Shown here: positions 20,130 to 22,461 of the stretch, in pieces | Position numbering within the stretch: position 1 is the stretch's first letter | Layout of the letters: every line of letters begins with the position of its first letter | Notes under the pieces: model-generated | What the model was told of the DNA's origin: nothing | Databases searched by the model: none | The model's input: the letters and a program-made list of their open reading frames with translations, nothing else | Position numbers and translations under genes: made by a program | Origin: Victivallis vadensis | GTDB lineage: Bacteria > Verrucomicrobiota > Lentisphaeria > Victivallales > Victivallaceae | DNA length: 64,000 bases | Direction: 5' to 3' | NCBI RefSeq assembly: GCF_003096415.1 | Contig: NZ_QEKH01000001.1 | Coordinates: forward strand, 124,001-188,000

Positions 20130-20169
20130 ATAAGGTTTTTGTATGATTTTACCTTGGGGAGATGCCGAA

Positions 20170-21291
20170 GTGTTGATCGTAAAGCCGCAAAACTTTCAAC
20201 TGCCTGAACCGCTGCAGCTCGACTGCGGGCGGAGCCTCAAGCAGGTGAACATCCGTTACGAAACGGTCGGGGAACTCGCCCCGGACGGTTCCAACGCGGT
20301 GCTGATCACCCATGCCCTCTCCGGCGACGCCCACGTCTGCGGCCGCCACACTCCCGCCGACCAGAAACCCGGCTGGTGGGACGATATGATCGGCCCCGGC
20401 AAGATGATCGACACCAACCGCTATTTCGTCGTCTGCAGCAACGTGCTCGGCAGCTGCGCCGGTTCGACCGGGCCGCGTTCGGTGAACCCGGATACCGGCA
20501 ATCCCTACAACCTCGACTTCCCGGTCATCACGATCCGCGACATGGTCCGCGCCCAGAAATACCTGATGGAACATTTGAAAATTAAAAAGTTCCTGTCGGT
20601 GGTCGGCGGTTCGATGGGCGGAATGCAGGCGATGGAGTGGGCGATCAATTACCCCGACCTCGTGGACAGCGTGATTCCGATCGCGACCACCAGCCAGCTC
20701 TCCAGCCAGAGCATCGCGTTCAACTGGGTCGGCCGCGAGGCGATCAAGTACGATCCGAACTGGAACAACGGCAACTACTCCGCCGACCACGTGCCGGACC
20801 GCGGCCTCGCGGCGGCCCGGATGCTGGCGCACATCACCTATCTCTCCGAGGAGTCGATGAACCGCAAGTTCGGGCGGGAGCTGCAGGACGCCGACTCCTA
20901 CTCCTTCAATTTCCGGCGCGACTTCGCGGTGGAAAGCTATCTGGAGCATCAGGGCCGCCGGTTCGTGGAACGTTTCGACGCGAACAGCTACTTTTACATT
21001 ACCCGCGCGATGGATTATTTCGACCTCGCGGCCCGCGCCGGCGGCGATCTGGCGAAGGCGTTCGAGCCGGTGAAGGCGGCGGTGCTGGTGGTTTCGTTTT
21101 CGAGCGACTGGCTCTTCCCGACCTCCGAATCGCGCAAAATCGTGAATGCGCTGCTGAAAAACCGCTGCAACGTGTCGTTCTGCGAAATCGAGTCCGGCTA
21201 TGGCCATGACGCATTCCTGCTGGAAGTGGATATCCTCGGCGGCATGATCCGCGACTTCCTGCACAACCGACTGGAGGCGAACCGTGGTTGA
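20170..21291 (+). CDS. metX: Homoserine O-acetyltransferase
   Basis: A 373-residue alpha/beta hydrolase-fold enzyme that acylates homoserine in methionine synthesis. The family markers are all visible: ITHALSGDAHVCGRH, GWWDDMIGPGK, VLGSCAGSTGPRS, the nucleophile elbow GGSMGGMQAMEWA near residue 146, and the late FSSDWLFPT and GYGHDAFLLE segments with Asp and His. I favour GTG at 20170 (GGGGAG 8 bases upstream); the ATG at 20143 would give nine more residues but an almost leaderless message. Overlaps metW by 8 bases. Confidence 0.93.
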   Translation: MLIVKPQNFQLPEPLQLDCGRSLKQVNIRYETVGELAPDGSNAVLITHALSGDAHVCGRHTPADQKPGWWDDMIGPGKMIDTNRYFVVCSNVLGSCAGSTGPRSVNPDTGNPYNLDFPVITIRDMVRAQKYLMEHLKIKKFLSVVGGSMGGMQAMEWAINYPDLVDSVIPIATTSQLSSQSIAFNWVGREAIKYDPNWNNGNYSADHVPDRGLAAARMLAHITYLSEESMNRKFGRELQDADSYSFNFRRDFAVESYLEHQGRRFVERFDANSYFYITRAMDYFDLAARAGGDLAKAFEPVKAAVLVVSFSSDWLFPTSESRKIVNALLKNRCNVSFCEIESGYGHDAFLLEVDILGGMIRDFLHNRLEANRG

Positions 21292-21904
21292 ATCCCTTTA
21301 CCTCGACCTCAAAGCCCGTCCCGACCTCGAAGTCATCTCCCGGCTGGTCGATCCCGGCCACCGGGTGCTCGACCTCGGCTGCGGCGACGGCATCTTCCTG
21401 AAAATGCTGCGCGAAAAACGCGGCGCCGAAGTGCTCGGCATGGAGATCAGTCAGGTTGAAATCGCCAAGTGCATCGCCAACGGCGTGCCGGTGATCCAGA
21501 GCGACCTCGACGACGACCTCGATTTCGCCGAGGACGGTTCTTTCGACCTGGTGATCCTGTCGCAGACGCTGCAGCAGATGCGCCGGCCGGACCGCCTGCT
21601 GCGCCGCCTCGTCCGGGTCGGCAAGCGCGGCGCGGTCAGTTTCATCAACTTCGGGCATTTTCATTGCCGCTGGCAATTGATGCTGGCCGGTTCGATGCCG
21701 CGCACCACCCAGATACCGTATCAATGGTACAATACGCCGAACATCCACCTCGGCACCATCCGCGACTTCCGGCGGCTCTGCAAACACCTCGGAATCCGGA
21801 TCGTGCAGGAGATTCCGATCGGCTTTTCCTTTCCGCTGCTGACCGCCGCCTGGCCGAATTTGTTCGCGGTCGGCTGCGTCTTCGTGATCGAACGCGCCCA
21901 ATAA
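21284..21904 (+). CDS. metW: Methionine biosynthesis protein MetW
   Basis: A 206-residue SAM-methyltransferase-like protein. The glycine-rich motif VLDLGCGDGIFLKML and the MetW-specific ILSQTLQQMRRPDRLL and QIPYQWYNTPNIHLGTIRDF segments identify it. It starts with GTG inside the end of metX, the usual metX-metW arrangement, where MetW is needed for or stimulates homoserine acylation in several bacteria. Confidence 0.93.
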   Translation: MVESLYLDLKARPDLEVISRLVDPGHRVLDLGCGDGIFLKMLREKRGAEVLGMEISQVEIAKCIANGVPVIQSDLDDDLDFAEDGSFDLVILSQTLQQMRRPDRLLRRLVRVGKRGAVSFINFGHFHCRWQLMLAGSMPRTTQIPYQWYNTPNIHLGTIRDFRRLCKHLGIRIVQEIPIGFSFPLLTAAWPNLFAVGCVFVIERAQ

Positions 21905-21995: not shown

Positions 21996-22062
21996 GAAAA
22001 GAAGGGAAACAATGGACGGTCATAGCTGAACGCCATAACTCATTATATGATTTGGAGGTTCC

Positions 22063-22461
22063 ATGCGAGTTTTTACCCAAGACCATCTGTGGCTTGATTA
22101 CGAGGACGGCATTGTGATTCTGGGGCTGACGGCCTATGCGGCTTCCCGGTTCCGGGAGGATGCAGTTTTGAAATTCCCGGCGGAAAGCCGCCTGCTTTTT
22201 CCCGGCGTGCCGATTGCTTCATTGGAATCTTCCGGTCTCCTCCATGACATCCGCTCCCCGCTGGAGGGATTCCAGCTCGGCGTCAACCGGGAACTACAGC
22301 GGTCGCCGCACAAGCTCACCCGTTCCCCCGAGGAGGAGGGGTGGCTCTGCCAAATCTACTGCCCGCGCTGGCAGCCCGCCGAACATCTGTCGCGACGCGG
22401 CTACGAGGCTTTTCTGGAAACCCTGCCCGCTCAACGGCAGCTTGCGGCCATCCATTCCTGA
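22063..22461 (+). CDS. GcvH-like protein lacking the lipoyl lysine
   Basis: A 132-residue protein that aligns along its length with glycine cleavage H protein: FTQDHLWLDYEDGIVILGLTAYA (compare the HEWV...VGIT-YAQ start), then SLESSGLLHDIRSP, GFQLGVNRELQRSPHKLTRSP and EEGWLCQIYCPRW, as in GcvH up to the GW-hallmark. In GcvH the loop reads ESVKAASD with the lipoylated Lys; here it reads ESSGLLHD, so Gly58 takes that place and no Lys is nearby. It cannot be a classical aminomethyl carrier. No gcvP/gcvT or lipoate ligase is nearby. Start set by TTGGAGG. The 3' end overlaps the convergent nucleoside-hydrolase gene by 31 bases. Confidence 0.8.
   Translation: MRVFTQDHLWLDYEDGIVILGLTAYAASRFREDAVLKFPAESRLLFPGVPIASLESSGLLHDIRSPLEGFQLGVNRELQRSPHKLTRSPEEEGWLCQIYCPRWQPAEHLSRRGYEAFLETLPAQRQLAAIHS

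Follow-up and report, generated by a model that had tools for sequence, protein, structure and literature searches.

A divergent GcvH paralogue with glycine at the lipoyl-lysine position in Victivallis vadensis and a probable lipoate-independent role for H-proteins in its order

GcvH is the textbook swinging-arm lipoyl carrier. Our analysis of H-proteins in the order of Victivallis vadensis indicates that they very probably have a second, lipoate-independent function there, because they are kept by purifying selection after the loss of both GcvP and the lipoyl lysine. The gene at the center of this report lies in a window of 64,000 nucleotides—the whole stretch of V. vadensis DNA that was analyzed—and is, on sequence grounds, a genuine, very divergent GcvH paralogue, predicted to be incapable of carrying lipoate at the normal site. 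On balance, we favor the explanation that the H-protein fold has a second role, probably in docking or as a scaffold, for which no lipoate is needed and in which this Lys-less paralogue may share. An arm that has been lost many times from a protein under strong selection amounts to a natural experiment separating the function of a fold from that of its cofactor, and the reason for GcvH retention without glycine cleavage becomes directly testable in this clade. A gcvH annotation in these bacteria is also no guide to their capacity for glycine cleavage or lipoylation.

The window gene and its product

The window gene starts with ATG, has an uninterrupted frame of 132 codons, and sits behind metX-metW, convergent with a nucleoside hydrolase-like ORF (Table 1). 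These three neighbors include no glycine cleavage gene, which agrees with the original prediction, and GcvP is missing genome-wide. A promoter scan gave nothing above chance.

Table 1. Features of the window gene and its upstream neighbors
Feature	Position in window	Strand	Basis or remark
Lys-less GcvH-like gene (window gene)	22063..22461	+	132 aa, stop included; sequence, profile, alignment, and model evidence
GGAGG, ribosome-binding-like site	22054..22058	+	read from sequence; just 5' of ATG
Gly58 codon GGT, lipoyl-lysine position	22234..22236	+	gap-free alignment with H-proteins of known structure
Lipoyl hairpin region, ASLESSGLLHD, residues 52-62	22216..22248	+	alignment; AF2 β hairpin 50-56/59-64
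metX (homoserine O-acyltransferase), upstream neighbor	20143..21291	+	NCBIfam PRK00175, 540 bits
metW, upstream neighbor	21284..21904	+	TIGR02081, 220 bits

The product matches the Pfam family GCV_H (PF01597) with 46.1 bits, where 22.2 would suffice (E value 5.6e-12), and its similarity to GcvH is therefore not due to chance; it scores far below the TIGR00527 equivalog cut-off (38.5 vs. 115.85 bits). Residues 1-100 align gap-free to H-proteins of the PDB (phmmer), with ASIESVKAAADVYAPL of the Thermotoga maritima H-protein standing opposite ASLESSGLLHDIRSPL of the window protein. ESVKAAAD in the former faces ESSGLLHD in the latter, and the hairpin lysine of the ES-x-K motif that characterizes TIGR00527 GcvH is replaced by Gly58. 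Because the alignment is gapless through the lipoyl hairpin, the lysine position corresponds to Gly58 with no frameshift involved, which rules out a frameshift as the origin of the altered loop. An AlphaFold (AF2) model built from six sequences (mean pLDDT 84, pTM 0.78) has the H-protein fold when compared with solved H-proteins in Foldseek (TM 0.80 to 1onl), and core or fold positions are retained at T5, H8, W10, G21, A26, P66, G69, N75, P82, P89, G93, W94, and Y114. The original prediction, a GcvH-like protein with Gly58 in place of the lipoyl lysine in which the fold is kept while the known chemistry is lost, is thus upheld by the Pfam match, the gapless alignment, and the predicted structure.

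How far the window protein has moved from its relatives is apparent from its very long branch on the GcvH tree (3.89). Many columns conserved among other Lys-less GcvHs are lost, and so is much of the acidity of these proteins, most of which are very acidic (pI 5.9 vs. a median of 4.05). We found no orthologue among 137 genomes of the order, 388 genomes of the phylum, or close relatives; pattern scans of GTDB contigs returned only Lys-bearing, ordinary GcvH relatives, viral contigs yielded none, and plasmids and phages gave distant matches only. A truncated sister is present in the same genome on contig 21 (L033:10122-10403). This third GcvH copy of the genome, which reads MRLYTKEHLWLDFEDGIVVLGLTSYAISQLGEITFL and then continues into unrelated sequence, shares 53% identity with the window protein along 43 residues before it breaks off. 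Over the first 30 codons, dN/dS between the window gene and this sister is ~0.16, from which it follows that their lineage has been constrained for some time. Elsewhere in the order, three genomes (G043, G050, and G055; loci L142, L155, and L163 in family f8) have a second GcvH with Gly at the Lys position, of the SPYxDGW/SCYEDGW type, together with GcvP and a normal GcvH. Kinship of the window protein with these proteins was considered and rejected, as the tree places the two apart and the f8 proteins are of a different sequence type, and glycine probably arose independently in the two.

The divergence bears on a doubtful but serious alternative, namely that the window gene is a duplicate in decay, freed once glycine cleavage and lipoylation were lost and still open by chance. 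Its extreme divergence and eroded conserved columns, the lack of an orthologue in the order and phylum genomes, and a sister copy that is already truncated are all what decay would produce. However, the 132-codon frame is intact and has a ribosome-binding site, the core and fold positions from T5 to Y114 are kept, and the dN/dS with the sister is low, even if the constraint that it records may predate the present. The window protein may therefore be a specialized copy or a decaying one, and we infer that it shares or modifies the role of the main GcvH rather than decaying.

Absence of GcvP and the lipoyl lysine in the host and elsewhere in its order

The host assembly (5.2 Mb, 99.5% complete) lacks GcvP in a whole-genome search whose control was positive in 10 of 14 genomes. 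Of the two glycine cleavage proteins GcvP and GcvT, the host has only the second, in which the Asp motif is retained (GGVRDDLL). The lipoylation enzymes tested—LipA, LipB, and LplA—are all absent from the genome. The sole match to PF03099 is C2:8161, with a reading frame of ~265 aa, which looks BirA-like and is taken as BirA because of its length and because the LplA/LipB model PF21948 does not call it. The main GcvH of the host, on contig 29, reads ESVNSSSEIYSP, with the lipoyl Lys replaced by Asn, unlike most congeners, which keep the lysine (ESVKASSD).

This combination of losses recurs in the order. We read the Lys position in nearly all GcvHs found across the 137 genomes, leaving out G073, and set the Lys state of each genome against the presence of GcvP, GcvT, LipA, and LplA/LipB. 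At least one Lys-GcvH is present in all 61 genomes that have GcvP and GcvH. The GcvP-less genomes with a GcvH number 64; the lysine is kept in 20 of them and missing in 44, where 12 different residues take its place (D, R, N, E, T, S, G, Q, A, V, H, and C). The association between GcvP and Lys-GcvH is strong in a Fisher test that ignores kinship (1.6e-18). On the GcvH tree the Lys state has changed at least 17 times (17-18 by parsimony), and in a tree-aware pairs test every pair points in the same direction, with too few supported pairs for significance. Lys loss cannot be explained by loss of lipoylation alone, since 32 of the 44 GcvP-less, Lys-less genomes retain a lipoylation gene of some kind, and GcvP loss is the better predictor of Lys loss. 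Six genomes (G039, G071, G080, G093, G094, and G095) keep a Lys-GcvH with neither GcvP nor LipA/LipB/LplA found, which possibly reflects recent loss or an unknown ligase.

Selection on Lys-less H-proteins and their possible role

GcvH outlasts GcvP far more often than does GcvT. Among the 74 GcvP-less genomes, 65 have a GcvH and 26 a GcvT homologue; GcvP absence was judged from assemblies of which some are incomplete, and the picture is the same in the subset chosen at about 90% completeness or more (30 vs. 13 of 32). Pairwise NG86 dN/dS values inside Lys-less clades are mostly 0.01-0.1, a few reaching about 0.24, single figures being rough because dS is frequently saturated. The main Lys-less GcvHs are thus under purifying selection. 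The ratio of GcvT to GcvH dN is 1.1-1.8 in sets with GcvP, as against 5.1 in a GcvP-less clade with Arg for Lys. The lipoyl hairpin of family f1 (columns 54-62) has an entropy of 0.24 bits in GcvP-bearing genomes with Lys and of 2.12 bits in GcvP-less, Lys-less ones, whereas the remaining columns go only from 0.81 to 1.01 bits; because the rise is concentrated in the hairpin, the constraint that was lost is mostly that on the lipoyl arm. A particular situation is found in genus g48 (G081-G092; loci L083 and L119-L158), which has two GcvHs per genome, a divergent Lys-GcvH adjoining gcvP and one of ancestral type in which Ser replaces Lys (Lys is kept in G084). In the same genomes, the Lys-less protein evolves more slowly than the Lys-GcvH (median dN 0.007 vs. 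0.023).

What role might be selected? The known roles of GcvH—methylamine shuttle, lipoyl relay, and LbpA—all need the lysine, and binding would therefore be the job that remains. The host has lost GcvP, the tested lipoylation enzymes, and the lysine of its main GcvH, and across the order H-proteins persist under purifying selection once GcvP and lysine are gone. In the simplest mechanism, the Lys-less H-protein would be small, acidic, and active in docking or as a scaffold, with a conserved surface binding a partner, while the lipoyl hairpin, freed of its task, would drift. For the main Lys-less GcvH, docking or scaffolding is the most likely role, with protein binding as the inferred mechanism. 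The broader proposal, that GcvH of the order has a selected job needing neither lipoate nor glycine cleavage, which would explain its survival, with the window protein as a specialized extra copy, is credible but put forward tentatively. The original prediction suggested that a GcvH had given rise to a protein for binding or regulation, which fits these data and gains strength from what is seen across the order; nothing indicates a partner or a regulatory role, and decay could also account for the window gene. In particular, across ~17 GcvH loci with flanks of up to 8 kb, no conserved neighbor of gcvH is common across genera except an occasional gcvT, so that gene context points to no partner.

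That exception raises the alternative that Lys-less GcvH and the retained GcvT homologue form a repurposed pair, both without glycine-cleavage catalysis, which we consider unlikely. The Asp motif of GcvT is GGVIDDL in E. coli. Its D97 is the residue mutated in PDB 3a8k according to the title of the structure, and the DD motif is also found in T. maritima GcvT (chain 1woo) and in PDB chain 1yx2. The motif is gone from nearly all of the GcvTs in the 26 GcvP-less genomes that have one (GGVLGAPL in G002 and G003, for example), and yet their frames persist, with dN/dS of about 0.08-0.42. As these frames are still unbroken at dN values that reach about 0.5, the function of the Asp-less GcvTs may have changed too. 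The Asp-less homologues (L214-L233 and L173:2131-3120) have open frames of about 230-470 aa. Moreover, gcvT adjoins the Lys-less gcvH in G025, and gcvT and gcvH share a stretch in G012, G100, and G101. On the other hand, 48 of the 74 GcvP-less genomes, most of which keep GcvH, have no GcvT, which rules it out as the partner of GcvH in general, and the host's own GcvT retains the Asp motif. It is very improbable that the window protein remains a carrier, as its fold might allow, with lipoate or some other modification on a different residue: the host has no LipA, LipB, or LplA, the residues that replace lysine cover all chemical types, and the hairpin is free of constraint. A sequencing or assembly artifact can be practically dismissed, given that an entire codon is replaced within a long open frame, that the genome is 99.5% complete, and that the same kind of Lys loss recurs in dozens of other genomes. 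A lipoate-independent docking or scaffold role remains our preferred reading.

Comparison with known systems

In the literature that we searched, which was not exhaustive, no report of a Lys-less GcvH was found, nor any paper joining GcvH and "Lentisphaer-". Among the closest known systems, the lipoyl carrier GcvH (PF01597, TIGR00527) resembles the window protein in fold, length, the HxWL, GxT..A, and SPEEEGW motifs, and the frame of the hairpin. The window protein differs from TIGR00527 GcvH in having no lipoyl lysine, and its host in having neither GcvP nor LipA/LipB/LplA. Against TIGR03077 (not_gcvH), the model for a chlamydial GcvH homologue whose genome has no glycine cleavage system, the window protein scores only 30.7 bits, with an equivalog cut-off of 144.05.

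Three other systems illustrate functions of GcvH-like proteins beyond glycine cleavage. GcvH-L acts through lipoylation. It belongs to SirTM/macrodomain operons (PMC4518038; PDB 5a35) and, as a GcvH-like protein outside glycine cleavage, is a structural match to the window protein, but there is no SirTM, macrodomain, or ligase among the annotated neighbors of the window gene and no LplA in the genome. H-proteins also donate lipoyl to 2-oxoacid dehydrogenases, in bacteria as well as in human and mouse GCSH (PMC7868403, PMC9990993). The parallel with the window protein is that a function beyond glycine cleavage explains why GcvH is retained, although donation of lipoyl needs the lysine, which the window protein does not have. 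In the lipoate-binding LbpA proteins of sHdr sulfur oxidation, the lysine is strictly conserved and the chemistry is lipoate dependent (PMC6067878), whereas the window protein has Gly58 at that position and, in place of an sHdr cluster, metX, metW, and a nucleoside hydrolase-like ORF as neighbors; what LbpA and the window protein would have in common is a GcvH fold recruited outside glycine cleavage.
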